A stretch of 64,000 nt of DNA from Mya arenaria (Eukaryota > Mollusca > Bivalvia > Myida > Myidae): contig NC_069124.1 in NCBI RefSeq assembly GCF_026914265.1, positions 86,824,915 through 86,888,914 of the forward strand, in the 5' to 3' direction. Every line of letters starts with the position of its first letter. Within the stretch, counting starts at the first letter, position 1. The position numbers were made by a program, and so were the translations under genes. This document shows positions 4,114 to 63,506 of the stretch, one piece after another. A model generated the notes under the pieces. That model was not told where the DNA came from and did not search any database. It saw only the letters and a list, made by a program, of their open reading frames with translations.

Positions 4114-7100
4114 ATGGCGCTAGCAGCAGCGCCCGTTCTTCTGGTGATTACACTCTGCTACTTGCATGGTAGGGCTATTTTGATTGCCCCATTACAGTGT
4201 TATACTTTGTTGTTGCATTATATTTGCGTTCACTAGTCGTGTTTAGTGTTAAGAACTTTGTGTATGTAAGGTGACAAAGGAAGTGTACTGTTGGTTTTTA
4301 AAAAATGAAGCTTTATCTACTTATAAGTTTTTTGTGGACCAAAGAGAATTACAATGCTTAGTTTATGTTTGTTTCTAGGTCCATTAAATATTTGAGCGCA
4401 TTTTTATTTCATTTATTTACACGTGTTCAATTCTATTTTGTTCTTTTCTTTCATCAACATATACATATAAATTTAATTTGTGTCTATAAAATCAAACAAC
4501 CATGTCTAAGTTACATAAACACAAACAGTGCTAAGTATTATAGTTTGATTTCACTCATTATACACTGTTGATTGCATGTCTTGCAAAATGTAATTTAAAA
4601 AAAACGGTACTTTCGTTTGTGTTTTTTTTAACACTTACAATATGTTTACAAATTAATACCAAAAGAAACACTATGCATAAGTAGGCTTTGAAAATTGTCA
4701 ATCAATTGTTGTTCTTATAGTTACGAGATCATAATACATGTAACTTGTTTATCTACTTTGGACATTCATGTTAAAGTCTTTAAATCGGACTGTTAATATA
4801 AAGTAAAGATAATACGTATCTTAAATTAATTATATTACTGTGTATATGCTAAAGTTCAATTTTAGCGATCAACAGAAAAGAAAGCAAGCTGAGGTAGCCT
4901 GCTCTTTTTTCTTTAGATCGTCAAACTTAAACTCGAATTTATTTAGTGTTTTTGGTGCATTGTTCTGAATCGATCTACGCTAAAGTAATGGATAGAAAAT
5001 TTGAATATCCTCGATTGCCATTGGCCCTCTCAAAAAAGCAAACACCAAGGACATGCTACCTGTTAATACAGACACAAGTTTGACTATCTATGAAACTATT
5101 TTTGCTGCATTCGTCAAAATCGATATACGTAAAATTCATGAACAGAAAATTTAAAAAAACTCGATTGTCATTGGCTCACACAACCACGCAAACTTCAAAT
5201 TTTTGAAGCCTTCAGGCATTGTATTATCACGTTTAATAACTTAAGGCATATATGCATTTGAAATACCACATGAAACTATGGAACTATATAAAGAACATCC
5301 ATTTCGGGAACTAAACCATGTTTGATAAATTTAATATGCTGAAAAGTATATATTTGAAATTCATAGGTGTTGCTCAATGGGAAAAACCTTAATGTTATAT
5401 ATATAATATATATATATATATATATTGTAACTTATTTGATACGTTTGAATTAAGTAAATGGTGCAACTTAAAACTCATGAAACACATATCAATACGGTGT
5501 TACTTTTACCTTGCAGGAGCATGGTCGACAGAACCGATGATGTTTGGGGGTGCTATGTCTGGGATGGGTGTTGGAATGAATCCCATGGGAGGCAAATTTG
5601 CAGTGAAGAACGCTATCAGAACCAATATACAGATGCTGTCCAAACAACTAGCTAGTATGGAGAGAATGCACAGCCCTATGATTAGAAACCCATTTATGAA
5701 TAAGAAACCAATCATTCCACCCAAGAAACCTTTCTTCCCTAAAAAGCCGATCCTTCCAAAGAAGCCAATATTTCCACCCAAGAAGCCAATGTTTCCAAAG
5801 AGGCCGATCTTTCCGAAGAAGCCAATGATTCCACCGAAGAAGCCAATGTTTCCAAAGAGACCGATCTTTCCGAAGAAGCCAATATTTCCACGCAAAAAGC
5901 CAATGTTTCCAAAGAGGCCGATCTTTCCCAAGAAACCTATAATCCCTCCTAAGAAGCCGATGTTCCCAAAGAGGCCGATCTTTCCGAAGAAACCTATAAT
6001 CCCTCCTAAGAAGCCGATGTTCCCAAAGAGGCCGATCTTTCCGAAGAAACCTATAATTCCTCCTAAGAAGCCAATGTTTCCAAAGAGGCCGATCTTTCCC
6101 AAGAAGCCAATGTTTCCAAAGAGGCCGATCTTTCCCAAGAAGCCAATGTTTCCAAAGAGGCCGATCTTTCCCAAGAAGCCAATGTTTCCAAAGAGGCCGA
6201 TCTTTCCCAAGAAGCCAATATTTCCACCGAAGAAGCCAATGTTTCCAAAGAGGCCGATCTTTCCCAAGAAACCTATACTCCCACCAAAGAAGCCAATGTT
6301 TCCTAAGAGGCCGATCTTTCCCAAGCAGCCAATATTTCCGCCCAAGAAGCCCATGTTTCCAAAGAGGCCGATCTTTCCAAAGAAGCAAATGATTCGACCA
6401 AAGAAGCCAATGTTTCCTAAGAAGCCGATCTTTCCCAAGAAGCCAATATTTCCTAAGAGGCCGATCTTTCCCAATAAGCCAATTTTTCCACCCAAGAAGC
6501 CAATGTTTCCAAAGAGACCGATCTTTCCCAATAAGCCAATGATTCCACCAAAGAAGCCAATGTTTCCAAAGAGACCGATCTTTCCTAGAAAGCCAATATT
6601 TACACCGAAGAAGCCAATGGTTCCAAAGAGACCGATCTTTCCTAGGAAGCCAATATTTACACCTAAGAAGCCAATGTTTCCTAAGAGACCGATCTTTCCA
6701 AAGAAGCCAATGATTCACCCAAGAAAGCCGATTTTTCCGCAAAAGAAACCGTTTATTCCCAAGAAGCCATTTATACCACGAAAGAAACCATTCATCCCAA
6801 AGAAGCCGTTTATACCCCAAAAGAAGTTTTTCATTCCACGGAAACCGTTCATTCCACGAAAGAAACCATTTATTCCTATGAAGCCGTTTATACCGCAAAA
6901 GAAACCATTCATTCCGTTCATTCCTAGGAAAACATCGTTTATGCCGAAGAGACCATTTTTTCCAAATGGCCTTCCTGGGATGGGTATTTTCGGACAAAAG
7001 GGACCTACTTATAACTCTGTGATGAAGCCAAAAAAATTCATGATACCTAAACAATCCATTGCCAAAAACCCATTTAAAGGAAAACCTAAGTTTATGCCAA

Positions 7101-7129
7101 ACAGAATTGGAGATTCAATATTTTGGTAA
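4114..7129 (+). CDS. gene A: secreted Lys/Pro-rich repeat protein, about 555 aa, two coding exons
   Basis: Coding exon 1 is 4114-4168 and encodes MALAAAPVLLVITLCYLH, a clear signal peptide. It ends in phase 1 at donor 'gtaggg'. Acceptor 'ttgcag' (5511-5516) opens exon 2, 5517-7129; the split codon gives Gly and keeps the frame. The mature N-terminus (GAWSTEP, then Met/Gly-rich) leads into a possibly helical stretch (AVKNAIRTNIQMLSKQLASM). Next come about 18 repeats of a 19-residue type, KPMFPKRPIFPKKPIIPPK, partly as 12-residue units, then a second block of PFIPKK-type repeats, then a non-repetitive tail ending GDSIFW. There is no Cys in the mature part and the protein is strongly basic. Composition and secretion suggest an extracellular matrix, byssal or shell protein. 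I do not recognise a named family. Gene B is its tandem paralogue. The long antisense frames over exon 2 are shadows of the repeat. Confidence 0.85.
5700..6720 (+). repeat. coding minisatellite of gene A (57-bp and 36-bp units)
   Basis: The KPMFPKRPIFP region is a DNA-level tandem repeat. Near-identical 57-bp units (19 residues) run through 5,930-6,070. Four consecutive identical 36-bp units (12 residues, starting 'aagccaatgtttcc') lie at 6068-6211. Later units (6,300-6,720) are more diverged. Identical neighbouring units imply recent slippage or unequal exchange. Confidence 0.85.
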
Positions 7130-7432
7130 ATGAATTTATACAGCTACACAATACAACATTTGTACCAGAACTTGACTTTTAGGGGCTGGTATTGAACTGT
7201 CTCATTAAAATTGATTTTGTTTGTATGTAACGTTGACATGACCATATGAGGATGTTATGTTTGTGAAGGAACTGTATTCCTTTAAGAAATGCTCGAAAAC
7301 TTGTGTTATACACAGATGTCGTATTCTGTGATCATGCAGCTTGAAATGTTGTCACAAAACCTTTGACGTAGCTTACCCTTACACTTAAGCAATAATTTAT
7401 TTCATTGAATACGAAAAATGCGTTGCTAAATT

Positions 7433-7486
7433 AATAAAACATTAAACTTCAATTTCCTGTTTGTTGACATTATATAGTTTAATAAA
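7433..7486 (+). terminator. candidate polyadenylation signals of gene A
   Basis: AATAAA hexamers lie at 7433-7438 and 7481-7486, about 305 and 350 bp after the stop codon. The second is conserved in the gene B copy (14898-14903). No other gene lies close enough to own them. Confidence 0.5.
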
Positions 7487-11261: not shown

Positions 11262-11531
11262 ATGAAACAATTGCGCGGTCTGTGCATGGTTTCGGTACTT
11301 TAAGTTAACGAGGCTTGGCGACAATATTATTGATGGGCAATCTGTTGATTATTTCAGCTTAATTAGTATTCAAAACAGAACGGAGTCACGATTAAAGCAT
11401 TACTTATGATATATTAAGTAAGATAAATCAACCGATTCGGTCGATTGTTTTGTTTTTTTTTACTTTCCGCCTGCTGCCTATTTAAATGCGAACTTCGCTG
11501 CCAACTGTCATATTTGGTAGGCACTTAGGAG
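11262..11531 (+). promoter_or_regulatory. promoter block and 5' UTR exon of gene B
   Basis: The counterpart of 3,695-3,962. TATA-like 'tatttaaa' is at 11479-11486, the 5' UTR exon ends at 11531 with donor 'gtaacc', and the acceptor AG is at 11711-11712. Upstream differs from the gene A copy at only a few positions over about 200 bp, in contrast to the diverged intron sequence. Confidence 0.6.
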
Positions 11532-11718
11532 GTAACCATTTCATGTTGATTTTGTTTGTGTTGTTAAAGGATTTTACTTTAATTTTATTTGATTAAAGTT
11601 AATATTCTAACAAGTTACAGCTTGGATATAAATAGTTTACAGTAAATTCTCATCACATAAAACAAAGATGTATGTAACCTTCAACTCGTATTAATCATCT
11701 TACGTGTTTCAGGCCGAG

Positions 11719-14534
11719 ATGGCGCTAGCAACAGCGCCCGTTCTTCTGGCGATTGTACTCTGCTACTTACAAGGTAGGACTATTTTGACTGCCCCATTTT
11801 AGTGTTATTCGTTTTGTTGCATTATTTGCGTTCTCTGGTAGTGTTTAGTGTTTAGAACTATGTGTGTGAAAGATGAAAAATGTAATGTCCAGTTGTTGTT
11901 GTTTTTATAAAAGATGCTTTAAGCTACTTAAAAGTAGTGAGTGAACCAAGGAGAATCACAATAATTAGTTTATGCTCGTTTCTTTGTCCATGGAACACTT
12001 CAGCGCATTTTTATTTGTTTTTACACGTTTTCCACTTGATTTTCGTTCTGTCTTTCCATCAATATATATAATTTAATTTGTGTCTTTTAAACCAAGGCAA
12101 TATGTGTACGTTAAATAAATAATTTGGGTTGAAGTTGGACTTCTTTAATTATCACCATACGTTACATAAACAAATTCAGTGCTTAGTATTAGAGCCTAAT
12201 TTCATTCAATAAATACTGTTAGTTGCATGTCTTCAAAAATGTTTGTAAAAAACGGTATTTTTTTAACACTTACAATATGCTTACAAATAAATACCAAGAG
12301 AAACACTATGGATAAGGTGTTTTTGAAGTTTGTCAATCAATTTTTGTTCTTGTTGTTACGATACTATAATAACTTGTTAAGCGACATTGGACATTAATGA
12401 TAAAGAACATAGTGATTTTTTAATCGGTCTGTTTTAAGAAACTAAAGAGAGGACGTTTCTTAAATTAATATTATTTCTAGAAATAACTTCGTATATGTTG
12501 AAGTTCAAATTTAGCGATCTACAGAAAAGAGAGCAGACCGAGGTAGCCTGAACTGAGGAATTTATTTAGTGCGTTTTGGTGCATTCCTCTGAATCGATCT
12601 TCGCTTAAGTAATACACAGAAAATCCTTCATTGCCATTTGCCCTCTCAAAATTGCAAACACCAAGTATATATGCCACCTTTTACTGCATACACTACTTTA
12701 ACTACAGCAAAATAATCTATGAAATTATTTTGGTGCATTCGTCAAAATCGATATACGTAAAAGTCATGAACAGAAAACTTGAAAAATACTCCATTCTCAT
12801 TAGCTCACACAACCATGCAAACACCAAATTGTTGAAGCGCCAAGGCATTCCACTATAACGTTCAATAACCTAAGACCTAAATGCATTTGAAATACAATAT
12901 GAAACTATGGAACTATATAAAGAACATTTCGTGAATTAAATCATGTTTGATAAAATTAATATGCTGAAAAGTAAATATTTGAAATACACAGGTGTTGTTC
13001 AATGGGGGAAAACCTTATTGTAAAACCTTATATATATATATATTGTAGTAAGTATTTTGATAAGTAAATACTTGAAATACACAGGTGTTGCTGAATGGGA
13101 GAAACTCTGCCTTAAAAATTAAAATGCTATATATATTGTTACTTATTTGATATGTTTGCATTACGTAAATGGTGCAACTAAAAACTCATGAAACATATAT
13201 CAATACGATGTTACTTTAACCTTGCAGGAGCATGGTCGACAGAGCCGAAGATGTTTCCGGGTGCTATGCCTGGGATGGGTGTTGGAATGAATCCCATGGG
13301 AGGCAAAATTGCAGTGAAGAACGCTATCAGGACCAAAATACAGACGCTGTCTAAACAGCTAGCTAGTATGGAGAGAATGCACAGCCCAATGATTGGAAAC
13401 CCATTCATGAATAAGAAACCAATCATTCCACCCAAAAATCCTTTCTTTCCAAAGAAGCCGATCCTTCCAAAGAAGCCAATGATTCCACCCAAGAAGCCAA
13501 TGTTCCCAAAGAAGCCGATCTTTCCGAAGCAGCCAATGATTCCACCCAAAAAGCCAATGTTTCCTAAGAGACCGATCTTTCCGAAGAAGCCAATTATTCC
13601 ACCCAAGAAGCCAATGTTTCCAAAGAAGCCGATCTTTCCAAAGAAGCCTATAATCCCACCCAAAAAGCCAATGTTCCCAAAGAAGCCGATCTTTCCGAAG
13701 AAGCCAATTATTCCACCCAGGAAGCCAATGTTTCCTAAGAGGCCAATCTTCCCAAAGAAGCCTATAATCCCACCCAAAAAGCCAATGTTCCCAAAGAGGC
13801 CGATCTTTCCGAAAAAGCCAATTATTCCACCCAAGAAGCCAATGTTTCCTAAGAAGCCGATCTTCCCAAAGAAGCCAATTATTCCACCCAAGAAGCCAAT
13901 GTTTCCCAAGAAGCCGATCTTTCCCAAGAAGCCTATAATCCCACCCAAGAAGCCAATGTTCCCAAAGAGGCCGATCTTTCCAAAGAAGCCAATTATTCCA
14001 CCAAAGAAGCCAATGTTTCCAAAGAAGCCGATCTTTCCGAAGAAACCTATAATCCCACCCAAGAAGCCAATGTTTCCAAAGAGGCCGATCTTTCCAGGGA
14101 ACCCAATGATTCACCCTAAAAAGCCGATATTTCCACAGAAGAAACCGTTTATTCCCAAGAAGCCGTTTATACCACGAAAGAAACCTTTCATCCCAAAGAA
14201 GCCGTTTATGCCTCAAAAGAAGTCGTTCATTCCACCGAAACCGTTCATTCCACGAAAGAAACCATTCATTCCCATGAATCCGTTTATACCGCAAAAGAAA
14301 CAGATCATTCCCAACAAGCCTTTCATTCCTAAGAAAACATCGTTTATGCCGAAGAAACCATTTTTTCCAAATGGCCTTACTGGGACGGGTATTGTCGGAC
14401 AAAAAGGACCTATTTATAACTCAGGGATTAAGCCAAACAAATTCATGAAGCCTAAACAAATTATTGCCAAAAACCCATTTAAAGGAAAACCAAAGTTTAT
14501 GCCAAACAAAATTGGAGATTCAATATTTGGGTAA
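11719..14534 (+). CDS. gene B: secreted Lys/Pro-rich repeat protein, about 453 aa, paralogue of gene A
   Basis: Coding exon 1 is 11719-11773 (MALATAPVLLAIVLCYLQ, signal peptide), phase-1 donor 'gtagga'. Exon 2 is 13228-14534 after 'ttgcag'. The split codon is Gly, as in gene A. Order: GAWSTEP N-terminus, a Met/Gly-rich segment, a possibly helical segment (AVKNAIRTKIQTLSKQLASM), about 12 copies of a very regular 19-residue unit KPMFPKKPIFPKKPIIPPK, a PFIPKK block, and a tail ending GDSIFG. It is about 100 residues shorter than gene A, almost all in the repeat block. The 12-residue variant expanded in A is absent. An extracellular structural role is inferred from the signal peptide and composition. 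The frame continues open into the intron at 13188, but that start lacks a signal peptide and lies upstream of the acceptor. Confidence 0.85.
13410..14110 (+). repeat. coding minisatellite of gene B (57-bp units)
   Basis: About twelve 57-bp units encode the 19-residue motif. They differ mainly by Lys/Arg at one position and by synonymous changes (ccaatgtttcc against ccaatgttccc), which suggests homogenisation within the array. Confidence 0.85.
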
Positions 14535-31776: not shown

Positions 31777-31878
31777 ATTATCCTCTAAATATTACTCTTC
31801 AATTTTAATTATGCAATCAGTCCCCCGAATTAGGCAGCCAACTCATACCTAACATTGCATGTCTTTTATTCACAGACG

Positions 31879-37800: not shown

Positions 37801-40800
37801 AGGCATTGACCCGGTGATGTGTGTCTCTCTCTTTCAGTGTCTGTAAGGCATTGACCCCGTGTTGGGTGTCTCCCGTCCAGTGTCTGTAAGGCATTGACCC
37901 GGTGATGAGTGATTCTCTTCCAGTGTCTGTAAGGTATTTGCTCGGTGATGTGTGACTCTCGTCCAGTGAATGAAAGGCATTGGCCCTGTGATGTGTGTCT
38001 GTCGTTCAGTGTCTGTAAAGCATTGGCCCTGTGATGTGTGTCTCTCGTCCAGCGTATGAAAGGCATTGGCCCTGGTGATGTGTGTCTCTCGTCCAGTGTA
38101 TGAAAGGCCTTGGCCCTGTGGTGTGTGACTCTCGTCCAGTGTATGAAAGGCATTGGCCCTGTGAAGTGTGTCTCTCGTCCAGTGTATGTAAGGCATTGGC
38201 CCTGTGATGTGTGACTCTCGTCCAGTGTATGAAAGGCATTGGCCCTGTGATGTGTGTCTCTCGTCCATTGTCTGTAGGTCTTGACCCGATGATGTGTGTC
38301 TCTCGTCCAGTGCCTGAAAGTCATAGACCCGGTGATGTGTGACTCTCGTCCAGTGTCTTTTCAGTGATGTGTGTCTCTGGTCCAGTGTCTGAAAGACATT
38401 GACCCTGTGATGTGTGACTCTCGTCCAGTGTCTGTAAGGCATTGACCCCGTGATGTGTGTCGCTCGTCCAGTGTCTGTAAGGCATTTACCCGATGATGCG
38501 TGTCTCTCGTTCAGTGTATGTAAGGCATTGACCCGGTGATGTGTGACTCTCGTCCAGTGTCTGTTCAGTGATGTGTGTCTCTCGTCCAATGTCTATAAGG
38601 CATTGACCCGGTGATGTGTGCCGCTTGTCCAGTGCCTGTAAGGCATTGACTCGGTGATGTGTGTCTCTCTCTTCCAGTGTCTGTAAGGCATTGACCCCGT
38701 GTTGGGTGTCTCCCGTCCAGTGTCTGTAAGGCCTTGACCCGGTGATGAGTCATTCTCTTCCAGTGTCTGTAAGGCATTGACCCGGTGATGTGTGACTCTC
38801 GTCCAGTGTCTGTTCAGTGATGTGTGTCTCTCGTCCAATGTCTATAAGGCATTGACCCGGTGATGTGTGTCGCTCGTCCAATGTCTGTAAGGCATTGACC
38901 CGGTGATGTGTGTCTCTCTCTTCCAGTGTCTGTAAGGCATTGACCCCGTGTTGGGTGTCTCCCGTCCAGTGTCTGTAAGGCATTGACCCGGTGATGAGTG
39001 ATTCTCTTCCAGTGTCTGTAAGGCATTGACCCGGTGATGTGTGACTCTCGTCCAGTGTCTGTAAGGCATTGGCCCTGTGATGTGTGTCTGTCGTCCAGTG
39101 TCTGTAAGGCATTGGCCCTGTGATGTGTGTCTCTCGTCCAGTGTCAGGAGGCCTTGACCCGATGATATGTGTCTCTCGTCCAGTGTCTGAAAGGCATTTA
39201 CCCGGTGATGTGTGACTCTCGTACAGTGTCTGTTCAGTGATGTGTGTCTCTCGTCCAGCGTCTGAATGACATTAACCCTGTGATGTGTGACTCTCGTCCA
39301 GTGTTTGTAAGGCATTGACCCTGTGATGTGTGACTTTCGTCCAGTGTATGTAAGGCATTGAACCGGTGATGTGTGTCTCCCGTCTAGTGTCTGAAAGGCA
39401 TTAACCCTGTGATGTGTGTCTCTCTTCCAGTGACTGTAAGGCATTGACCCGGTGATGCGCGTCTCTCGTCCAGTGTCTGTAAGGCATTGACCCGGTGATG
39501 TGTGTCTCTCTTCCAGCGTCTGTAAGGCATTGACACGGTGATGTGTGTCACTCGGCTAGTGTCTGAAAGGCATTGACCCGGTGAACCGGTGATGTGTGTC
39601 TCTCTTCCAGTGTCTGTAAGGCATTGACCCGGTGATGTGTGACCCTGGTCCAGTGTCTGTAAGGCATTTGCCCGGTGTTGCGTGTCTCTCTTCCAGTGTT
39701 TGTAATGCATTAACCTGGTGATGTGTGTATCTCGTCCAGTGTATGTAGGCCTTGACCCAGTGATGTGTGTCTCTCGTCCAGTTTCTGTAAGGCATTGGCT
39801 CTGTGGTGTGTGTCTCTCTTCCAGCGTCTGTAATGCATTGACCCGGTGATTCGTCTCTCTCGTCCAGTGTATGTAAGGCATTGACCCGGAGATGCGTGTC
39901 TCTCATCCAGTGTATATAAGGCATTGGCCCTGTGATGTGTGTCTCTCTTCCAGCGTCTGTAATGCATTGACCCGGTGATTCGTGTCTCTCTTCCAGTGTC
40001 TGTATGGCATTGAGCCGGTGATGCGTGTCTCTCTTCCAGTGTCTGTAAGGCATTGACCCGGTAATGCGTGTCTCTCTTCCAGTGTCTGTAAGGTATTGAT
40101 CCGGTGATGTGTGTCTCTCGTCCAGTGTCTGTAAGGCATTGACCCGGTGATGCGTGTCTCTCTTCCAGTGTTTGTAAGTCATTGATCCGGTGATGCGTGT
40201 CTCTCGTCCAGTGTCTATAAGGCATTGACCCGGTGATGTGTGCCGCTTGTCCAGTGCCTGTAAGGCATTGGCCCTGTGATGTGTGTCTGTCGTCCAGTGT
40301 CTGTAAGGCATTGACCCCGTGTTGGGTGTCTCCCGTCCAGTGTCTGTAAGGCATTGACCCGGTGATGAGTGATTCTCTTCCAGTGTCTGTAAGGCATTGA
40401 CCCGGTGATGTGTGACTCTCGTCCAGTGTCTGTAAGACATTGGCCCTGTGATGTGTGTCTGTCGTCCAGTGTCTGTAAGGCATTGGCCCTGTGATGTGTG
40501 TCTCTCGTCCAGTGTCTGGAGGCCTTGACCCGGTGATATGTGTCTCTCGTCCAGTGTCTGAAAGGCATTTACCCGGTGATGTGTGACTCTCGTCCAGTGT
40601 CTGTTCAGTGATGTGTGTCTCTCGTCCAGTGTCTGAATGACATTAACCCTGTGATGTGTGACTCTCGTCCAGTGTTTGTAAGGCATTGACCCTGTGATGT
40701 TTGACTTTCGTCCAGTGTATGTAAGGCATTGAACCGGTGATGTGTGTCTCCCGTCTAGTGTCTGAAAGGCATTAACCCTGTGATGTGTGTCTCTCTTCCA

Positions 40801-43800
40801 GTGACTGTAAGGCATTGACCCGGTGATGCGCGTCTCTCGTCCAGTGTCTGTAAGGCATTGACCCGGTGATGTGTGTCTCTCTTCCAGCGTCTGTAAGGCA
40901 TTGACACGGTGATGTGTGTCACTCGGCTAGTGTCTGAAAGGCATTGACCCGGTGAACCGGTGATGTGTGTCTCTCTTCCAGTGTCTGTAAGGCATTGACC
41001 CGGTGATGTGTGACTCTGGTCCAGTGTCTGTAAGGCATTTGCCCGGTGTTGCGTGTCTCTCTTCCAGTGTTTGTAATGCATTAACCTGGTGATGTGTGTA
41101 TCTCGTCCAGTGTATGTAGGCCTTGACCCAGTGATGTGTGTCTCTCGTCTAGTTTCTGTAAGGCATTGGCTCTGTGGTGTGTGTCTCTCTTCCAGCGTCT
41201 GTAATGCATTGACCCGGTGATTCGTCTCTCTCGTCCAGTGTCTGTAAGGCATTGACCCGGAGATGCGTGTCTCTCATCCAGTGTATATACGGCATTGGCC
41301 CTTTGATGTGTGTCTCTCTTCCAGCGTCTGTAATGCATTGACCCGGTGATTCGTGTCTCTCTTCCAGTGTCTGTATGGCATTGAGCCGGTGATGCGTGTC
41401 TCTCTTCCAGTGTCTGTAAGGCATTGACCCGGTAATGCGTGTCTCTCTTCCAGTGTCTGTAAGGTATTGATCCGGTGATGTGTGTCTCTCGTCCAGTGTC
41501 TGTAAGGCATTGACCCGGTGATGCGTGTCTCTCTTCCAGTGTTTGTAAGTCATTGACCCGGTGATGCGTGTCTCTCGTCCAGTGTCTGAAAGGAATTGAC
41601 CCGGTGATGTGTGTCTCTCGTCCTGTGTCTGTAAAGCATTGTCTCGGTGCCGTTAAGCAGATGTTTTGATTGACTACTGGGGTTTTGTCTTTAGGTCAAC
41701 TGTTTTATTAGATTGAAGGAACTAATTTCATGTGAGCAAAATATTTGGTATGTAGACCTTAATTGAAGAATCGACAATAAAATCGACTTACTCACTTAGA
41801 TCGTGACTAAAACAACTATTTCCTAATCAAATATCGCTGACGCCATTAACTTTACATTTACTCTGGTAAACATTAACCACAACACAAATTCTGAATTGGG
41901 CTTGCTATTTAGCGTATATCTATTGCACAAAGTATTGAAGCGTAATACGCAAATATCCCATGTCACATACATTTATGAAAGGGGTCAGTAAAAACGATCA
42001 ACGATCAATACAATTTGAAAGATAAACGTTCAAATAGTACAACACAATATAGTCGTAAAAGCAATTTCATTTCAAGGGTGAATTTATAAGATCAATATTT
42101 CATTCAAATCGTCGACATATACAACATTAAGCTTACTGGTAACCAAACTTCACACTCGCCTTTAAAGATGCGCTAGGCCAGAGCAAAAACCAGATATAAA
42201 ATCTATTTTAAAATGTAAAAAGCTCTTGAAAACTGTACCCACCGAACCTTGGCAACGAGTATGAACAAATAATGCACTAATGCCATGTATATTCAATATT
42301 TACATTTAAACAGTATTTAATGCACGTTGATAAATAATGACCATGAGTTTATTGTTAATGTTAAGCGCACCAAAACGCTTAAAATTGTAAAATACGCAAA
42401 TGAAGTCCTAAATCATGGCAATGCGCTGGCAATTCGGGTTTGAGATGTTCTCTGTTATTTTATCTGTTACACACGATACAAGGAGCACCAAACACAATAG
42501 TTTCTGTCCGTAAGGCAATGCGAACATTGAAATGCTTGCTTCAACTGGAACGAAACCAATTTAATGTTACGAGATTCCTACACGTATTTGTATGTAATAT
42601 AAAAGCCAACAAACACATAAGGAAATATATCATTAAAATCATACTGATTAAACAAATGAATGCTCGCTGCCAAATAAAACCCTCGAGTGACGAACCACGC
42701 ATTCAACCTTCTTATATAGCACAGCACGAAAGCCACGTGTATTCCCAATATCCGTCCGCTTAACGTCTCACCGCTGAAACAGACGACAATTAGTCAATTT
42801 TGAAATGAAAATAATTTTATATATACGTTCTCGAACGACCGCTTGTTCGAACGACCGCAGTTTTACTGTTACTATATTTCACCTTGATTTCGCAAGAAAT
42901 ATATTGAATGTTCGCATCGTTTAAACATTTACATGTACACTGCACTTATCAACTTTTATTTAAAAATGAGGCACTAACGCTTAATACAATTGCTGAAGTG
43001 ATATTGATACTGCATGTTTAGCATAAATATTCTCAATTTAATCATGGTTTTTGCTTTCCAGTCGATTTCTTCAACAGCAACCTGCAGCTAGACACAATAG
43101 CCTCCCGCATGGATCTTGGTGGTGGGTCTTCACATGGATCGGGCCGGAGATCACCTCCTAGAAGTATCGGTGGGGTGCGCAGAGTAGCTTCCGGTATCCA
43201 GGAGGACCCGTCCTTTATACAGCGAATTCTTGGCAGCACGGTAGCTGGCAGGGAACTGAGAATGGGGGAGATGGGTAAGTATTCTCACTAATTCTCCCAG
43301 TAAATTATTTGCCTTTTAATGAAAAGGTGATGAAATTGATATTGCACAAGTCTCTCAATAATATTTGAGGTATATTTCATTGCAGAGTAGCTGCCTGAGC
43401 ACGTTGATTGTTCTTGGTTGAAATAACGTTGATTTTAAATTGTTGTATTAGCAAAACGAAGTATTATATCGGTAATGTGTAAAGTTTTATTGAAATTCAG
43501 GCTTTATTTACTTTGTTGTCATAATATTAAATGACATATAACAACCCGGAAACACGATCAATTTATTACATGATCGTCTGGCGTCTGATCATCTTCGCCG
43601 TTTGAATTTAACGGCTGCTGCTATACCAAAACATGCTTTTTTTCCCTGTGTATGTGATGTTTTGGCTAACTATAAAGATAATTTGAAAACTACCACACCT
43701 AAATGCCATCCAAATAAGATTATCACAGATTGCCACTAAATATATTTCTTGATTTTATATGTGATATTTGTTTTGTACTTGAATGTACATGAGCCGTACA

Positions 43801-44467
43801 TTGTATTATGTGTGTATCCAGACCTACCGCGGCACGGTGGTGCCGGTATCGGGGAGCGGCACGCCGACGGGTTGCTCGATGGCTGGGACGGTAACCCACA
43901 GACGCTTATGAACCAGTTCAATCGCGGTCCATCCGGTCCACCCACGTGGTCTGACCCATTCAATGGCCGCCGCATCCCGCAGGTTCCCGTGGGATTCAAC
44001 GGCAACTTTGCCTCCATCAGAGGCTTTGGCCGGGTCCCGCCCGTCAGACCGCGCCGCCGTTGGTGTAAGTATAGAGTAGATGCTAGAGGCATGTTCGATT
44101 TAATATAATCTATCATAGATGGACACTTCAATGCATAATCATTAAATCAACATTAAAATAACATGACTTTTTTCCGGTTTATTGAATAAATGACGAAGGA
44201 ATAAAACATTATTCAATTCGAAACAGTGAAATCCTGACATCTTTAACCACAAAACTTTACAGGGAGATTACAATGAACTCGATTTCCTTGTTTTAATAGC
44301 GACTAAAACAGTGCACTTATATGTCAATTCACATAATTTAAGATAGGAAAAGCCAAAGTATAGTATATATAGCCAATTGTCATGATATTAGCCTTGGTTG
44401 TAATGCATGTCATGATATATTTGCGAATGCAGTGCATACAGATGCAGTCTTTGTTTTCTTTCTAGGA
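31879..44467 (+). CDS. gene C: secreted Gln/Gly-rich protein, 286 aa, five exons
   Basis: Exons: 31879-31945, 32113-32448, 43062-43274, 43822-44064, 44466-44467. All introns are phase 1, with donors gtatga, gtattt, gtaagt, gtaagt. An acceptor 'ttcacag' four bases before the ATG implies a 5' UTR intron. Exon 1 encodes signal peptide MDVRVILLTLTAVINTVLG. Exon 2 has repeats of the GQADAQFRG type. Exon 3 has an Arg/Ser/Gly-rich part, then FIQRILGSTVAGRELRMGEM. Exon 4 has LPRHGGAGIGERHADG, then Gly/Pro/Asn/Arg-rich sequence ending RPRRRW. The stop TGA is split by the last intron (T at 44064, GA at 44466). The exon 3-4 motif recurs in gene D, so C and D are related. Intron 2 holds an 8.7-kb minisatellite. 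A structural or matrix role is inferred. A phase-2 use of the last donor would add NNTKLR. Confidence 0.75.
33440..34092. repeat. 652-bp higher-order duplication within the minisatellite
   Basis: A pattern of unit variants (including the 'tataccatgtgatgtgtgtc' unit) ending at about 33,440 is repeated ending at about 34,092, an offset of 652 bp, and again 2,210 bp further on at 36,302. Confidence 0.75.
33560..37975. repeat. 2,210-bp higher-order duplication within the minisatellite
   Basis: The sequence around 33,550-35,750 is repeated essentially unchanged at about 35,760-37,960. Unit-variant landmarks at 33,872, 34,584, 34,645, 34,979 and 35,324 reappear at 36,082, 36,794, 36,855, 37,189 and 37,534, all exactly 2,210 bp away. 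Confidence 0.85.
38842..41550. repeat. 1,371-bp higher-order duplication within the minisatellite
   Basis: Landmarks at 39,384 and 39,444 recur at 40,755 and 40,815, an offset of 1,371 bp, with a few substitutions. This is somewhat more diverged than the 2,210-bp pair, so probably older. Confidence 0.8.
41650..43061 (+). other. remainder of gene C intron 2
   Basis: AT-rich sequence between the minisatellite and exon 3. The open frame at 42,440-42,763 (107 codons) is Lys/Ile-rich with no domain, and I leave it as chance. It ends in a good acceptor, 'ttgctttccag'. Confidence 0.5.
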
Positions 44468-44531
44468 ACAACACGAAGCTACGATAACCACATTCGTCAA
44501 GCACGTTCCCGTGTATAATTACGTTTTGTGC

Positions 44532-44537
44532 AATAAA
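44532..44537 (+). terminator. polyadenylation signal of gene C
   Basis: AATAAA lies 65 bp downstream of the split stop codon. The last exon is thus a short, almost purely 3' UTR exon. Confidence 0.65.
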
Positions 44538-44539
44538 TA

Positions 44540-45597
44540 CACATAAATATATTTATTGACTGTTTAAACCGTGACTTACCTAAATTGTTATGCATTACAT
44601 AAATAAAACATGATCTACTCTTTTAGTATGCGACTTCACTGTTTTGCTGTACTTGTGTGCGTGTGTGCGTACGTACGTATTTAGCTGCAAGGAGCTCTCG
44701 TTTATTTCAAGTTTCAAACCACTTGGTTCATCTGTTTGAATGTTTGGAAGAATTTCTTAAGCAAATAATTTACATTACATTCCCTATTAAAATAAAAACT
44801 TCTTAAGAAGACCAATGTGTATCCGTTCCATGAAATGAATTTCTAAAATATTAAGCAGTTTTATAAATATTGTAAAAACAAACATTTTCAAATTGAAGGC
44901 TGTTTTACGATATTTTTCTCCCTTACTCAACACATCTTTGATTTAATTAAATATTAATAAGCCTGTCTCACTGCGGCTTAGTTCGTAATGCACCAGAAAT
45001 TATGTACACATACATAGCTGGAAAACATTCAAATGGACTTACCTGTTAGAACTTAACAAAAAAGAGTTTATTAATCCAAAATATAAATTATAACATAGTT
45101 ATTTAGTTTAAACCTATTTATTATACAACCACTGTGAAACAAGTTAGTACCAAAAATTATACTAATAAATCTCGGTGGCACGATATTACGCGACAGTGTG
45201 GTCTTGTGGTGTGGGGGGAACCGGAGTACACGTAGAAAAACCACTCCCCTGGGCTGGTGACGACAAATCCCCGGGTCGCATGTTTTCCATGCAACTGATA
45301 TAAATTATTTCACTGTATTTCATTAAAAGTATATTTAAACAAGAACGACAACTGTCACAAATTTCGTCCGTCCTTATTTAGTTTATAAGTGGTTTTATGT
45401 TAAGCCAAATTTAGAGAGTGGAAAATGTAAACACAATTTTGACAAATCATAACTGGAGTGACTGAGGCGAATGGCTGGTTATCGAACCTGACCATTATAT
45501 TCTGCCCAGACACATCCTGAGCAAATATGGTGATACATGGAAAAAAAGGCATTAAAAGTTATTTGTCGGACAAGACCTATTTAAGGTAATTAAAGGG
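44540..45597. repeat. intergenic stretch ending in reverse-oriented dispersed-repeat modules
   Basis: From about 45,345 to 45,600 the about 165-bp module family of 860-2,700 appears in reverse complement (for example 'acaagaacgacaactgtcac', 'aagccaaatttagagagtgg', 'gtaattaaagggcg'). 44,540-45,340 shows no gene. Confidence 0.6.
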
Positions 45598-49019: not shown

Positions 49020-49395
49020 TTTGAACGAAATGTTAACCTAAACACCGTTTGACAAGGTGCCTGTCATTTAAAATGTCAGCTGCGTCATTTGGTTTGTAAC
49101 GTAGACATTGGTTAGCTTTGAGTACAACTGCGTCAGACAACGCAAAACAAACGTTACATCGAACGTACAGATATCAATCACTATACGGGGAAATAACGCT
49201 ACGCCTCTTGACTTTTAGCTTTACTAACAAATCTTTCATGTATAGTCAGACAATTAGCATAATATTAATTTTGACATTAGTAATGTCGTGGATAAATGCG
49301 GTTATGTTTTTATTACGAACCAACTGAGGCGTATCAATGCATATAAATACGAAAACATACCAGACTCTTCAGAAGAAACATCAGGGCGGAGAAGG
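49020..49395 (+). promoter_or_regulatory. promoter region and 5' UTR exon of gene D
   Basis: TATAAATA lies at 49342-49349. A short presumed 5' UTR exon ends at 49395 (donor 'gtaacg'), and the acceptor 'gttttcag' ends at 49736, before the ATG-containing exon. About 300 bp upstream is well conserved in the D' copy (62,160-62,573), including 'gtcagacaacgcaaaacaaa', 'cagatatcaatcac' and 'gacaattagcataat'. Confidence 0.6.
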
Positions 49396-49762
49396 GTAAC
49401 GATTGAAAACTTAAAACACTGAAACGTAGCAAAAAAATCAAAGTTAGATTTCACTTAAAACTATAAACTAACTGAAACGGAAATACAAATTCATCATACG
49501 AATAAGAACGAAGGTATGTGTTTCTTATTTGCACACAGCGTGCTTAAGCTATACTTTATATGTTCTTTTATTCTTGCCTTTTTTGGCCATTCCGCAAACA
49601 AATGTGTTCATCATTTTTTTCCAACCAACATCGGTTAGTGCTAGATTATATAATGAATTTGTATAACACATTTTCGCCATAATATTACTAAGTACTCTAC
49701 ATGCAAAAAGATAACATTGTATTATTTTGTTTTCAGAAACTCTTCAGAGGTAGTTAGCAAAC

Positions 49763-52261
49763 ATGCAGACTTTACTACAAACATTATTATGTTTCGTTTT
49801 CGTGGCGCAATGCCTTTCACAACCCGGTGAGAACTATTTGTATTTTATTTTTTCTTGTTTGTTTACATTTATTATTTACTTGTATTCGCCACAAACTTGT
49901 TCATAACATGTCAATAATAGCGTCTTAACTTAAATCTGATATCGAAACTATAAAAAAACAATTTTATTAAACATTATTGGATCAAAATATTCAATATGTT
50001 ACATTCAATCTGATTGTATTCAACGCGTTTGTATTTGATTAGGGACATACTCAGGCAGACGAAGAACAGTCGTAAATAAACCAGTGGTGGTCGATCATAT
50101 GCCGATCTTTAACCCCAAGCCGATTAATCCCAAACCGATTATCCCAAAGCCAATAAACCAAGTAATTTTTGGAGGAGAGAATAGCGCGTTTGGCCAAGGA
50201 AGTTTCATGGGAGGCAGTTCTGAACTCGAGCTCATTAGAAAGCTGCAAGGTAGCACCCAGTTTGGTCGTATTCTCAGAGCAGGTGAAATCATCGAAGGAA
50301 TCACGCTACCCGAACACGGAGGAACCTTAGAGGCAAGCGGCATCACTGCTGATGGTCGCGGTGCTATCATTCCAGGAGGATTACCGAAAAACGTTTTTAA
50401 CGATGGATGGCAGCATCCCTGGGGTGGCAATGCCATCCCAGATGATTATGCAGGACAGGAGCTTATTTTTGACCAAGCTCTAGGACATTACGTATACGTC
50501 AAAAATGCAAATGTCGGCCACCAAATAAACAAGGAAACGCATAACATTCAAAAGGCTGTTGGTCTAGGACAAAGCGTTGTTCCAACATCTCATAATATTG
50601 CAAAGTCAAATATGGCTGTCGAACATTCGATCGTGAAAGAAGCCGATCATATCGCAAGAAAAACAGTTGGAGGCGTTCAAGTTGTTGGTGGAGGGATGGG
50701 CTTCGACCCAATGACCCACAATACTATCAAAACAAGCGGCTCGGGCATCATCATTGCTGGAAAACCAACATACCAAGGTGGCATAATCAAGAGCGGTGGG
50801 GTCGATCCAGTGTCGCACAACATAATCAAAGCTTCCGCTGGAGCTGGTTTCGGCAACAATCCAACATCGCACAACATGATCAAGGCTTCAGTTGGAGCAC
50901 ACTCCGGAATGTCTGGACCTCATATCGGAGGAATCGGTGTTGACCCCATCACCCATGATATCGCCAAATCGGCATCCATTGGTACTGGTGGAATAGGAGT
51001 AGACTCTTTTAATCACAACATCGCAAAGGATAGCAATTTTCAGCATAACATGGTCAAATCATTAGGAGTAGGACACATTGGAGCCGGAAAACCTGGAATT
51101 TCTGCTGGCACTTTTGGTGTTGACCAATCAGGAATCATCGCTCACAATATTGGGAAAGCTACAATGGGAGCTGACTCAATTCAAGGTCACAACTTGGCAA
51201 AAGCTTCTGGCGTGCCCATAGGCTCTGGTTTCATGAACCCAGGATCCCATATCAGCCGTAAAGCAGAAGCACAGGCGGGTCACGATTTTGCTAAATCGGG
51301 TGGTTTGGGTGCCATCAGTAAGGCTCAGTCCGGTATTGGTCAACCAATTGGCATGCAAACTGTTTTCCTTAACGGTGCACAATCCGGAATGGATGGACGT
51401 CAAATTGGAGGTTTCGGTGTCGACCCCATCACCCATAACATCGCTAAATCGGCATCCGTTAGTACTGGTGGAATAGGTGTAGACCCTTTTAATCACAACA
51501 TCGCAAAGGATAGCCAGTTTCAGCATAACATGGTCAAATCATCTGGAGCCGGAGGACACATAGCCGCCGGAAAACCTAACTATGACAAAGGATTTATTTT
51601 TGGTACTGTTAACCAGCAAGGAGTCATCGCTCACAATATTGGGAAAGCCACAATGGGAGCCGACTCCATTCAAGTGCACAATTTTGCAAAAGCCTCCGGT
51701 GTCCCCATAGGCAATGGGTTTATGGGCCAAGGATCCCATATCAACCGTAAAGAAGGTCACGATTTTGCCAAGTCGGGTGGCATGAATGGAATGAATATAT
51801 TTGGACAAACGTCAGGATCAAACTTTGTTCACGATATGAATAAGGCTCAGTCCGCGATTGGTCAGCCAATGGGTTTGGGACATATGATAAAACCAGTTGG
51901 TGGCGCATCAGTAGTACACAACGTAAACAAAGTCGGAGCCGGTGGGGCTGCTGGTATGGGACATGATAGGTTGGCTGCTGAAGTAGGACACGGAATTGCA
52001 AAGAATTCAGTTGCTAATGCTGCTGGGATTGTTGACATGGGATCTGGAGGAGCGGTATCTATGGGAGATCCCTTCGCAAATCAGGCTGCGGCGCGACTTG
52101 CCCAGGAGTCACTTCACGTCGCTCAAAAGACGGTCGGCATGGCCTCAAACGGAGGTGGTGCTTTCAATCAGCCTATTATGCATAAACCAGTAATGCCAAA
52201 GAAGCCTGTTGTAGGCCCTACTGGATATGGCGGCCGTACTCGCAGTGTTCGCATTCATTAG
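49763..52261 (+). CDS. gene D: secreted Gly-rich protein with His-Asn-x-x-Lys repeats, 760 aa
   Basis: Coding exon 1 is 49763-49826 (MQTLLQTLLCFVFVAQCLS, signal peptide, then QP), phase-1 donor 'gtgaga'. Exon 2 is 50043-52261. The mature start is Arg/Val/Lys-Pro-rich (KPINPKPIIPKPI). A motif shared with gene C follows (LIRKLQGSTQFGRILRAGE ... LPEHGG ... ADG). The bulk is Gly/Ser/Ala-rich with about 20 HN(I/M/L/F)xK(A/S)-type motifs (HNIAKS, HNMVKS, HNFAKAS, HDFAKSG). A block of about 160 residues is duplicated in tandem (about 50,930 and 51,410). The C-terminus is again Lys-Pro-rich (KPVMPKKPVVG) and ends RSVRIH. The regular His and Lys spacing could serve metal binding or cross-linking; this is inference. 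No named family recognised. Confidence 0.85.
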
Positions 52262-52646
52262 ATGACATTGTAAGTATACAGCCAGTCTATTTCCCTATGT
52301 TGATCGATGAATTGTGATTAAGTGATTAAGCATTAAAACTCGTGACGCAAAAACGATGCTGCTTACACAAAATGCAAATCAGTTTCATTATATTATGATT
52401 GATAAGCAAATTAGAATAAGTATTTGTCATCATTAACATTGAATCATTTTAGTATTCAATCAACACAACGTTACTAAAAAAACAAAACCTGTTTACATTT
52501 TGTTGTTATGAACTTTACTTTTATCTGCAGACTTAATCGGTGATGTGCAATATGGTGACACAAGACGCGAGGTACTTGATCCAGCCAGTTCTTGTGATAT
52601 TTTCATGTAGATTTTTTTTGAGTATTTATTGAAAAGTTAAAATAAA
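52262..52646 (+). terminator. gene D 3' UTR with a likely intron and polyadenylation signal
   Basis: Eight bases after the TAG stop is an excellent donor (gtaagt at 52270), and 'ttatctgcag' at 52521-52530 is a good acceptor. A 3' UTR intron is therefore likely, too close to the stop to trigger nonsense-mediated decay. AATAAA follows at 52641-52646. Confidence 0.55.
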
Positions 52647-55390: not shown

Positions 55391-55651
55391 GTTAATTATG
55401 GGATCTGACTTATGTTTTTATAGGATTGCCATAGGGTTGTTTAATGCACGTTTTTGTAGAACTTCCAAAATATATTCACTGAGATTATATCCATTAACAG
55501 TCTTAATCGCGGAAATATACTTTATATTACGACTCTATTCAATATCACTTCGGCACCTATTGACAGTTAATGACATAATGGTATCTATTATGAAGCCATC
55601 TTACACAGCTTTGACAGTTTTCAAATTATGCATTGAATTTTTTTTGCTGTG

Positions 55652-56480
55652 ATGTTTGGTTCTTCAGAGAGTAACAGTGATCTTTTTAATTTTTATAAGT
55701 TTATGCCAATATTACTAATTTTGTCCGGTGACGTTGAATGTAATCCTGGACCTGACTCCGAATCATGTTTTTCAATATTACACCAAAACATTCGAAGTAT
55801 CCGATCTAAAATGGACTTCATAAAGGACAGTTTTATTGACTTTGACATTTTGTGTTTCGAGAATGAATATATCACACAAGATGGAAACTTGCAAATGCCT
55901 CTTTATAAAAAGGGTCACCGTACTTTGGTGTCTAACTATAGACCTATTTGTTGATAAGTTGTGTGGGAAAGGTAATGGAACGAATTATTTTTAAACACAT
56001 GTACAATTATATGCACCATAACAATCTCATTTACAAATATCAGTCGGGTTTTATTCCTGATCACTCAACGGTGTATCAACTTATTAATATATATCACCAA
56101 ATTTGCAAATCATTCAATGACAAACAGTCAACAAGCAATGTATTTTGTGACATATCTAAAGCGTTTGACAGAGTTTGGCATCGTGGTCTCAAACTCCAAG
56201 AATACGGAATTTCAGGAAATGTACGAAGATGGTTATCACAGTATCTTCTTCATAGGTCTCAGAGGGTTTTTATAGGAACTTCATTTTCTAACATTAAGCA
56301 CATATCATTTGGGGTCCCACAAGGCTCTGTTCTAGGTCCACTTCTGTTTCTAATTTATGTGAACGATATCGCTGAAACCCTTACATCGTCAACTAGGCTT
56401 TTTTCAGACGATAGCTCTCTTGCGGTTTCATCGAACAACACGCACTTCTTGGAGGTTATAATTAATAGTGATAGGGCTGT
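55652..56480 (+). pseudogene. CR1/L2-type LINE ORF2 remnant with a 2A-like peptide
   Basis: From the ATG at 55,652 the frame reaches GDVECNPGP at 55,727-55,753, matching the 2A consensus D(V/I)ExNPGP. The start of an APE endonuclease follows (ILHQNIRSIRSK, DILCFE). The frame then jumps, through loss of most of the endonuclease and RT N-terminus, to SNYRPI (about 55,930). A +/-1 frameshift near 55,950 leads to RT: CVGKVMERII, SKAFDRVWHRGL, GVPQGSVLGPLLFLIYVNDI and FSDDSSL (the FADD/YADD catalytic box with Ser in place of Ala). It ends abruptly near 56,480 against the minus-strand LINE. Internally deleted and inactive. 2A-like sequences near the ORF2 N-terminus are known in CR1/L2-type elements of invertebrates. 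Confidence 0.8.
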
Positions 56481-56529
56481 ATATATAAATCAGGTAATAT
56501 ACAATAAAATTCTTCCAGTTTGTGCACTG

Positions 56530-58568
56530 TTTCATATATTCGATATTATTCATATTCATATATTTTAACATTTTGGGGAATCGTTCACTTTGCTTTTCCA
56601 AGTTTTGTATATACTGGTTTCTTAATGAGGTTTCTACTAGATTTAACATTGATGCCTTGGAATCTTCGTAATACTGTTTTTGCAAATATAACTTAAGCCA
56701 CAGTCATCTAAAATATTCTTAACATTTTCTAGCCAAGGATATGTATTCCTATTTTTTATCGAGTCATTAAAAATATTTTATACAATACAGATGGCTGGTT
56801 GTGTGTTAACTTGTACCAAAACCCTACGAGTCGTTTTGCAATCATAATATTGAATGAAAAACGACCAAGGTCACCATATAGCATTACATGTGGTGTACTT
56901 TTCTTCGCATTCAAAAAATGTTTCATGAAATCAGTATGGATTTTTTCAACTAAACTTAAAATCACCATACCCCTACATTTCACATGCATACAACAAAATA
57001 GGGACAACAGTATTATCAAAAAGTTTAAGCTGACAGTAAATTGGCAGATACAAATTTCGTATTTTGAAATACAGATTAAATAGAGCTTTTCTAGCTTGTT
57101 CAATGACATGTTTTTTAGCATTAAGCAAACGTCTATGTTTAGTGGAAACTATGCCAAGATATTTAAAACTATCGACAACTTCAAATTTAAAATTTCTTAT
57201 AGATATATCTCTTGCTCTTCTAGGCATGTCTCCAAAAACTAGAACTTTTATTTTATCGACATTAATATCTAGCTCCCAAGTAGTACAATAGTCGATGAAT
57301 GCCTCCATTAGTGATAATAATTCGTGTTGACTTTTAGCAAATAACACAGTGTCGTCAGCATACAACAATACAACTAGTTTCAAGTATACATCGAGATCAA
57401 AATAATTTATTTTAATACTAGAGGCATATGTGACAACACAAAGTGCTGAAGGTCAATTAAAAATAGTGAAAATAAAACGGGTGATAAATTATCACCCTGT
57501 CGTACTCCTCGACTACATTTAAAGAAGTCAGAAACATTGTGATTTAACAAAATGCATGATTTTACGTCATTGTACATGTTTTTATAACACTGAATAGTTT
57601 ACCGTTCACATTATACTTAATCAGTTTTGACCAGAGTCCTGCACGCCATTCAGGATCAAATACTTTACGGAAGTCAATAAATGTACAATACAGTTTAGAT
57701 TTCTTATGCTTACAATATTCTGAAAACATTTGTAACACAAAAATATTATCTACATTGCTATGATTTCGTCTAAAAACCAGCTTGATTTTTTAACAAAAGT
57801 TCGTTTTCTTTTAGGTAAGCGGTACGTCTTTCGTTGATAATTGCAGTGAACAATTACCTAAACAACTCAAAATAGTAATAGGTCTATAAGTTTCAGGCAG
57901 TTGTAATTTCCTTTGCCTTTATAAATTGGTACAATAACTCCAACAAGCCAGGAATCTGGAATCAAGCCAGTATTTAGTATTTTGTTAAACAATTGAACAT
58001 ATATAGGCATGCATTGCTCACATGAGTATTTGATATATTCGTAAGTTATATGGGGAAGACCACTAGCTTTTCCGCTTTTCAGTTTATTTCTAGCTCTTCT
58101 AACTTCGGATGTATCTATAATTCAGATTTTTAAAGAAGTCAAGACATATTTTTTCGTTTAGGCCATTAACATAGTTCCAATATTCCTTTGGATATTTATT
58201 TCTTTCAAAAAATATCTTATGTATTTTACAACAGAGGTACGAATAACTTTTTTATATTTCTTACTAGCATTCAACATGGTCGTTTTATCTTCATTACTCC
58301 TACTTATCCTGAGTCTCCTTTTCGAATGATGAACATTATTGCGTGCACTTTTACAACTATCATCAAAACATTTTTGATTTGGATGTTGTTTAATCATGTT
58401 ATTAGTTTGCATATTTTTGTATGTTCCAAACGTATTTTTAGCAGCATAAAACAGTGTGTTACCAATTTTAGTAACTATGTCATTTATATTTTGTTTATTG
58501 TTGGCAATGTCAATATTGTTCAATAGACCATTGATTTCATCAATTCTTTTTACATCTAGTTTAATCAA
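56530..58568 (-). pseudogene. LINE ORF2 linker, reverse transcriptase and C-terminal part
   Basis: Linker: QKCFDDSCKSARNNVHHSKR. RT blocks in order: LKSGKASGLPHITYEYIK, GLIPDSWLVGVIVPIYKGKG, NQAGFRRNHSNVDNIFVLQM, FIDFRKVFDPEWRAGLW, CSRGVRQGDNLSPVLFSLFL, LLYADDTVLFAKS, FKYLGIVST. The C-terminal part has KSTPHVMLYGDLGRFSFNIM and then SLRNQYIQNLEKQSE. Catalytic YADD is kept, but the frame is broken repeatedly. Confidence 0.8.
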
Positions 58569-62159: not shown

Positions 62160-62573
62160 ATGTTCAATATCGTCATCATTTTAATAAACGTTTAATCAAA
62201 TAATAAGTTGACCTCTACACCGTTAGACAAGGTGTTTATCAATTAATATGGCAGTTCCGTCATTTGGTATGCAACGCAGTAATCGGTTGACCTTGAGTAA
62301 AACTGTGTCAGACAACGCAAAACAAACATTACATCGAACCTACAGATATCAATCACAATAAGGGGAAATAACGCCTCTTGAATTTCAGCTTTACAAATAA
62401 ATATTTCATGTACAGTCCGACAATTAGCATAATGCTAATTTTGACATAAGTAATGATGTGGGTACATGCGGCTCATTTATTTTTATTTCGACACAACTGA
62501 GGCCTATCAATGCATATAAATACGAAAGCATAACAGACGCTTCAGAAAAAAAAAACATCAGGGCGGAGAAGGG
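62160..62573 (+). promoter_or_regulatory. promoter region of D'
   Basis: Matches 49,020-49,395. TATAAATA is retained at 62515-62522. The 5' UTR exon donor has changed from gtaacg to gttagg, a weaker site, and an A-run in the exon has lengthened. Confidence 0.5.
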
Positions 62574-62973
62574 TTAGGATTGAAAACGTAAAATACTAAA
62601 ACGTCACAAATAAACCAAAAACCAAAAGTTCGATTTCACTAAAATATCCACTAAGTGAAACGGAAATACAAATATACAAATACAAATACAAAATACAATC
62701 ACACAAATAAGAACGAAAGTATGTGTTTCTTATTTGTTCACAGCGTGCTTAAGCTAAAAATTATATATTCATTTATTCTTGCCATTTTTGGCTATTGCGC
62801 AAACAAATGCTATTCTTATTTTTTGCAAACAAAAAAGTGTACATCGGTTAGCGCTGGATTATATAATGAATTTGTATAACACATTTCCGCACTTTATATT
62901 ACTCTTTTTGAAAAAACAACTACAACATTCTATTATTTTGTTTTTAGAAACTCTTCAGAGGTAATTAACAAAC

Positions 62974-63506
62974 ATGCAGACTTTACTACAAACATTATTA
63001 TGTTTCGTTTTCGTGGCACAATGCCTATCACAAGCCGGTGAGAACTATTTCTATATTAATTTATCTTGTTTGTTTACATGTATTATTTACTAGTAATCGC
63101 TATAAATGTGTTCCTAACATGTCAACAATAGCGTCTTTACTGCGGACCGAAGCTAATATAGAAAAAATAACAATCCATTTAAACAAAATAATTAGTACAT
63201 TATTGAATCGAAATAGCCAACAGTTATGAACGTTAATGCATCTGGTACATTAAACGTAATTGTATAAGTACTCAACGCGTTTTCATTTGTTTAGGCTATA
63301 ACTCAGACCGACGAAGAATATACGTAAAGAAACCAGTGGTGGTCGATCAGCAGCCGATTATTCACCCAAAGCCGATGAGTCAACAATCGATTCATCCAAA
63401 GCCAATTAACCAAGATATGTTTGGAGGAGAGAACCGCGCATTTGGTCAATGGTTTTTAATGGGAGGCGGTTCCGACCGGGCTTTCATTAGTAAGCGGCAT
63501 CACTGA
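62974..63506 (+). pseudogene. D': truncated copy of gene D
   Basis: The signal exon 62974-63037 is nearly identical to that of gene D (CLSQA for CLSQP), with the same phase-1 donor. Exon 2 starts at 63295 and follows gene D through the Lys-Pro-rich start (IHPKPMSQQSIHPKPINQ) and GGENRAFGQ. It then meets three deletions relative to D: about 50,239-50,334, about 50,348-51,173 and about 51,274-52,385. The second creates TGA at 63504-63506, leaving about 92 residues including the signal peptide. The shared GST..GR.LR.GE motif and nearly all HN-x-x-K repeats are lost. Remnants of D sequence continue to about 63,605, then 3' UTR. Probably a pseudogene. A short secreted Lys-Pro peptide cannot be excluded. 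Confidence 0.75.

Follow-up and report, generated by a model that had tools for sequence, protein, structure and literature searches.

Mollusc mantle secretomes contain many repetitive low-complexity proteins, described as evolving via duplication, motif gain and slippage (PMC4897951), and in oysters a shell-protein cluster is reported to have expanded via tandem duplication (PMC10543319). According to one account of the zebra mussel, its byssal loci number 37, spread over 10 chromosomes and partly clustered; the account calls shematrins "glycine-rich" and speaks of six shematrin-like mantle proteins that are not alignable with those of the pearl oyster (PMC9210306). In Pinctada, Met-rich regions with prolines are described for shell and ligament proteins that are insoluble (PMC7591529), and the composition given for Dbfp2 of the quagga mussel is 25% Pro, 23% Tyr and 18% Lys (PMC6474901). 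Here, we analyze a 64,000-base stretch of the bivalve Mya arenaria (assembly GCF_026914265.1, contig NC_069124.1, forward-strand positions 86,824,915 to 86,888,914; hereafter the window), which holds five genes for secreted proteins, A, B, C, D and D′, all predicted from sequence. They probably form a local cluster of lineage-specific structural repeat proteins that has grown by block duplication and by repeat expansion within exons, not by the movement of cassettes, and the duplications that best explain this growth would be those of A to give B and of D to give D′ and two copies outside the window, D2 and D3. In the literature searched, judged by titles, no published description of this cluster was found.

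The repetitive low-complexity domain (RLCD) proteins of mollusc mantle secretomes, such as KRMP and shematrin, are among the closest known proteins, compared here by description. Like this class, A to D have a signal-like N-terminus, and biased short repeats form much of the mature part of A, B, C and D, not of D′. The repeats of KRMP and shematrin are of a Gly/Tyr type, whereas A and B are built on Lys/Pro/Phe/Ile and D carries His/Lys arrays. The dreissenids are bivalves related to this clam. The locus shares with the accounts of their foot proteins (Dbfp2/Dpfp) Lys/Pro-rich tandem repeats, secretion and duplicated genes, some of them clustered (PMC6474901, PMC9210306), but those proteins are Tyr-rich, unlike A and B. 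With the Pinctada proteins NU-5 and LMP, as described, it has in common low complexity and a Met-rich make-up with prolines (PMC7591529), Met reaching 7.0% in A and 6.4% in B; this comparison is by composition only, and A/B differ in being dominated by Lys and Pro. The kind of protein would be a known one, and what appears unusual are two repeat designs and one orphan motif.

The original prediction assigned one gene plan to all five genes, and the plan itself holds. An acceptor-like AG, read from the sequence, stands 6 bases before the ATG in A and B, 3 in C and 26 in D and D′. The coding signal exons have the expected 55-67 bases, running from the ATG over 4114-4168 in A (55 bases; exon 4108-4168), 11719-11773 in B (55; exon 11713-11773), 31879-31945 in C (67; exon 31876-31945), 49763-49826 in D (64; exon 49737-49826) and 62974-63037 in D′ (64; exon 62948-63037), all on the plus strand and within about 60 kb. 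Every signal exon ends in phase 1 directly before its intron, and the coding introns listed are GT-AG in eight of eight cases. Signal peptides were judged by hydropathy only, as the best 11-residue mean, which in the four proteins tested (A, B, C and D) is 2.34-2.72 at the N-terminal core, compared with 0.69-1.25 in the rest of each protein. Upstream, A has a TATA-like box at 3909 and a predicted 5′ untranslated region (UTR) exon that ends at a GTAACC donor (together 3909-3961, plus strand), and box and donor are common to B (box at 11478). The corresponding box and exon of D (49340-49512, plus strand) have similar DNA at D′, D2 and D3, with the box at 62513 in D′ and both box and donor also readable in D2 and D3, while the UTR intron of C is predicted solely from its acceptor. 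Parts of the earlier picture need amendment: the five predicted signal exons hold up, but they represent only three families, B and D′ being local duplicates, and repeats build the mature part of A and B (57-bp repeats), C exon 2 (Gln/Gly) and D (an HxxxK array) but not of D′.

In both A and B, the signal exon is followed by a single large exon, which encodes a mature Lys/Pro protein. Exon 2 of A (5517-7129, plus strand, stop 7127-7129) is made of 19-residue (57-bp) repeats and completes a protein of 555 residues, and exon 2 of B (13228-14534, plus strand) one of 453. In a nucleotide self-comparison of the window (E<=1e-8, at least 60 bases; the printed rows exclude a satellite and part of the A/B repeats), the neighbourhoods of A (about 2.8-8.0 kb) and B (10.7-15.4 kb) are copies of a single block, with a repeat-rich stretch lying further upstream. 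With the N-terminal part of A as query against the whole assembly (1,216,080,610 bases in 18 contigs, the window being C3:86824915-86888914), all 21 matches listed lie inside A or B. The residues of A are 27.6% Pro, 21.1% Lys, 12.1% Phe, 10.8% Ile and 7.0% Met, the N-termini of both proteins are Met/Gly-rich, and the mature forms have an isoelectric point (pI) of about 12 and masses of about 50-63 kDa. Between prolines, 62 of 139 tokens in A and 45 of 108 in B are basic or polar (KRQNHT) and 60 and 45, respectively, are hydrophobic, the two kinds mostly alternating, and Pro directly follows 59 of 66 dibasic pairs in A and 41 of 46 in B.

The A/B repeats are clearly under protein-level selection. 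When these repeats are aligned between the two genes as nucleotides, mismatches in the best of 23 overlapping high-scoring segment pairs are distributed over codon positions 1/2/3 as 13/16/66 (265/264/264 sites), and in all 23, which overlap, as 396/322/1385. A different count, 0/133/763 on 26 units picked by their protein pattern, is biased by that choice, and the nucleotide-level count was used instead. By the NG86 method, the ratio of nonsynonymous to synonymous rates (dN/dS) is lowest in the repeats, at 0.09, against 0.31 in the N-terminal non-repeat part and 0.76 in the C-terminal part, although repeat alignments may pair non-orthologous units. The signal exon differs between A and B by five nonsynonymous changes and one synonymous change. 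At about 4001-4094, the UTR intron of A includes part of a dispersed element that recurs on many contigs.

D likewise joins its signal exon to one large exon (50043-52261, plus strand), giving a protein of 760 residues whose mature part contains Gly, Ala, Ile, His and Lys. Of its 38 His residues, 26 start an HxxxK motif; in 2000 shuffles, HxxxK/R occurred on average 3.0 times and at most 9 times. Self-comparison finds common blocks at about 47.7-52.8 kb and 60.3-64.0 kb, the second of which holds D′, an internally deleted remnant of 91 codons whose exon 2 (63295-63506 to its stop, plus strand) has lost most of its length, including the repeats, and is followed after the stop by decayed D sequence. 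Two further copies lie on the same contig: D2, inverted, at C3:86904497-86906178, within 20 kb to the right of the window, with its frame broken once, and D3, at C3:86140118-86141452, about 0.7 Mb to the left, with a shorter, open frame. All 11 genome matches listed for D exon 2 fall in D, D′, D2 or D3. In the best segment pair between D and D3, mismatches at the three codon positions number 12/16/26 at 192/193/193 sites, and dN/dS over 458 codons is 0.40; an internal duplication within D gives 12/13/30. A GTAAGT stands just past the stop of D, D2 and D3, with a conserved acceptor further on (window positions 52270-52540 for D), a pair that suggests a 3′UTR intron or an alternative end. Between D and D′, reverse-transcriptase fragments (RVT_1) occur on both strands at 55637-57452, and between the window and D2 there are tandem low-complexity open reading frames (ORFs), SPPEVG-like on the minus strand.

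C is longer than first noted, with five predicted exons holding coding sequence or the stop and an end at about 44.5 kb. Its signal exon is followed by the Gln/Gly-rich repeats of exon 2 (32113-32448), and ORFs at 43.0-43.3 and 43.8-44.1 kb, both prominent in a coding scan, flanked by splice sites and in frame onto exon 2, supply exon 3 (43062-43274, Gly/Ser/Arg-rich) and exon 4 (43822-44064). A last exon (44466-44540, its end approximate, with AATAAA at about 44532) is predicted, all of these being on the plus strand; it would hold a few extra codons if the exon 4 donor lies at 44062, and only the end of an immediate stop codon and the 3′UTR if it lies at 44064. Gly, Arg, Gln and Ser are abundant in the protein. 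Exons 3 and 4 carry the two halves of a non-repeat motif shared with D, LxGSTxxGRxLRxGE...LPxHGG, which reads ...FIQRILGSTVAGRELRMGEM-DLPRHGG... across the exon 3/4 junction of C and, uninterrupted, ...LIRKLQGSTQFGRILRAGEIIEGITLPEHGG... in D (50211-50456, plus strand). Because the exon 3/4 splice creates a motif that D holds unbroken, the exon model of C is independently supported.

Two chosen segments around this motif match in BLASTP with E 9e-6, having been picked after the motif was already noticed. The whole proteins of C and D give a local score of 84, which no shuffle attains among 500 global and 500 windowed ones; reversed C gives 41. Searched against the genome, the D copy of the motif finds D, D2 and one weak match (E 3.4, contig C2), put down to chance, without recovering C, and a search with C does not recover D; members as distant from one another as C and D could therefore be missed. 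Close copies of the motif are confined to this region in these searches. Of the 20 matches listed for C, 16 are weak ones elsewhere in the genome (best E 0.0078); these cover only query 3-141, which corresponds to its signal exon and Gln/Gly exon, and were discounted. The remaining pairs of families show low complexity only, and homology of A or B to C or D was rejected: the A-C score of 31 was reached in 312 of 500 global shuffles; the A-D score of 59 in none of the global and 37 of the windowed shuffles (500 of each), with the reversed control also at 59; and the B-D score of 63 in 2 of 500 global and 15 of 500 windowed shuffles, with the reversed control at 66. The independent families number three; a relationship between C and D would bring them down to two.

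The original prediction went beyond a common plan, holding that the secretion module is kept and the repeats are free to change. One module, made of the 5′UTR intron, the signal exon and the phase-1 intron, would then have been reused by exon exchange with unrelated repeats, and plan and phase are indeed common to all five genes. However, no DNA module is common to different families. The 5′ module of D is found at four places in the genome, all D-family, and that of C at one, C itself; of 44 matches listed for that of A, only those at A and B are full length, and the remaining 42 cover just query 122-215, the dispersed element in the A UTR intron. Self-comparison of the window, at the thresholds given above, finds no signal-region match between A and C, A and D or C and D. 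In the genome searches, each 5′ module is found only with its own family. Nor is the signal exon specially conserved: between A and B its identity is 89%, against 91-92% in flanking coding sequence, 90% in the 3′UTR and 84% in the following intron, and between D and D3 it is 83%, against 81% in the following and 76% in the other intron, about as in the surroundings, while in A/B it is the repeats that have the lowest dN/dS. D and D′ are the exception, with 95% (61 of 64) in the signal exon against 82% in the following and 87% in the other intron; the difference from both introns pooled (Fisher p 0.02, uncorrected) is the sole result favouring a kept module. Phase-1 introns near signal-peptide cleavage sites are described as being in excess across animal genes (PMC1626468), which makes their presence in three families weak evidence for one plan, and a common phase-1 signal-peptide intron should not be taken as a sign of a shared module. 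An exchange in the distant past might have left no mark in the DNA, but we regard reuse of one module as highly improbable.

What the proteins do is a separate matter. That they are byssal or adhesive foot proteins, perhaps of a juvenile byssus, in the manner of the dreissenids, is encouraged by the resemblance in make-up between the Lys/Pro repeats of A/B and Dbfp2 (PMC6474901) and by the duplicated, partly clustered byssal genes reported for the zebra mussel (PMC9210306), yet it seems unlikely. A, with 555 residues, and B, with 453, contain only 2 Tyr apiece, with hydrophobic Phe/Ile/Met in place of Tyr, and so are not adhesives rich in 3,4-dihydroxyphenylalanine (DOPA); with 1 Tyr in C and 7 in D, the Tyr-rich repeats of DOPA-type mussel and dreissenid foot proteins were not found in A to D, and a Pfam scan of exon 2 of A, B, C and D and of the exon-4 ORF of C gave no collagen match at E<=1 of the kind expected for byssal precollagens. 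The repeats of A/B also recall known proline-rich antimicrobial peptides, in that basic, Pro and hydrophobic residues recur at a pI of about 12, and A/B could be precursors or forms of cationic defence peptides instead of a material. Their mature length makes this very doubtful, as does the Pro after nearly all dibasic sites, since Pro in that place blocks cleavage and should prevent the release of short peptides at dibasic sites. Secreted, repetitive, fast-changing proteins occur among gamete, egg-coat and mucus proteins as well, and nothing in the sequence speaks against such a role, in which the proteins would not contribute to any hard or fibrous material; it strikes us as distinctly improbable.

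A local cluster of structural repeat proteins, grown by duplication, is the reading we prefer, and "dedicated biomaterial locus", as first proposed, is a plausible name for it. In keeping with lineage-specific proteins, the Pfam scan of six exon and ORF translations (those named above among them, C exon 3 lying outside the scan) gave no match at E<=1, nor did a search of PDB sequences with D exon 2 or the N-terminal 159 residues of A at the same threshold. Several points weigh against this reading. The label "structural" rests on composition. The non-repeat parts of A/B, pooled, have a dN/dS of 0.6, a weak constraint, and the D family is partly decaying, since the frame of D2 is broken and D′ is a remnant. 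The link between C and D is weakened both by the choice of the BLASTP segments and by the best shuffles, which at 81 and 82 come near the real score of 84. As A/B show no homology to C/D beyond low complexity, they may be mere neighbours of C/D.

Under this preferred reading, A and B would each form a long cationic rod, built of basic and hydrophobic pairs in alternation, with Pro between the pairs (KKP-MFP-KRP-IFP). Judging by composition, this pattern would favour extended polyproline-like chains, which might pack via charge/hydrophobic and cation-pi contacts and possibly be cross-linked through lysine, and the Pro after nearly every dibasic site should shield them from processing proteases. 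D would be a long Gly-rich chain whose HxxxK array could bind metal or join histidine/lysine cross-links, and C, through the motif common with D, may be its partner. Candidate materials would be periostracum or siphon sheath, shell, ligament and byssus. More tentatively, and with considerable doubt, the proteins could be co-deposited in an undescribed extracellular material of this burrowing clam, with A/B as a cationic Lys-Pro/hydrophobic rod, D as a His-Lys polymer and C joined to D through LxGSTxxGRxLRxGE...LPxHGG as an orphan assembly domain. If confirmed, the locus would provide specific candidate proteins for an extracellular material of a clam, as well as a test case where selection maintains the repeats as copies of the genes are gained and lost. 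Its two repeat designs, alternating cationic and hydrophobic Pro-separated pairs and HxxxK arrays, are simple enough for peptide copies.

A codon-usage scan trained on four HSP70 frames, with rows starting in the satellite omitted and small exons possibly missed, shows in the window, among its top 60 rows, mainly the A-D genes, shadows of these in other frames, stretches of low complexity and a small number of weak ORFs. Two exons lie to the left of the cluster, one matching AAA_2 and the other TRIP4_3rd, and an ORF to the right of D2, read by eye as a decapping-enzyme fragment, has no Pfam match. Intron 2 of C holds a satellite array of 8.7 kb (32972-41649), with about 202 copies of a 43-bp unit and parts that repeat 2,210 bases apart; related arrays occur on contigs C15, C6, C2, C1 and C10, among others.

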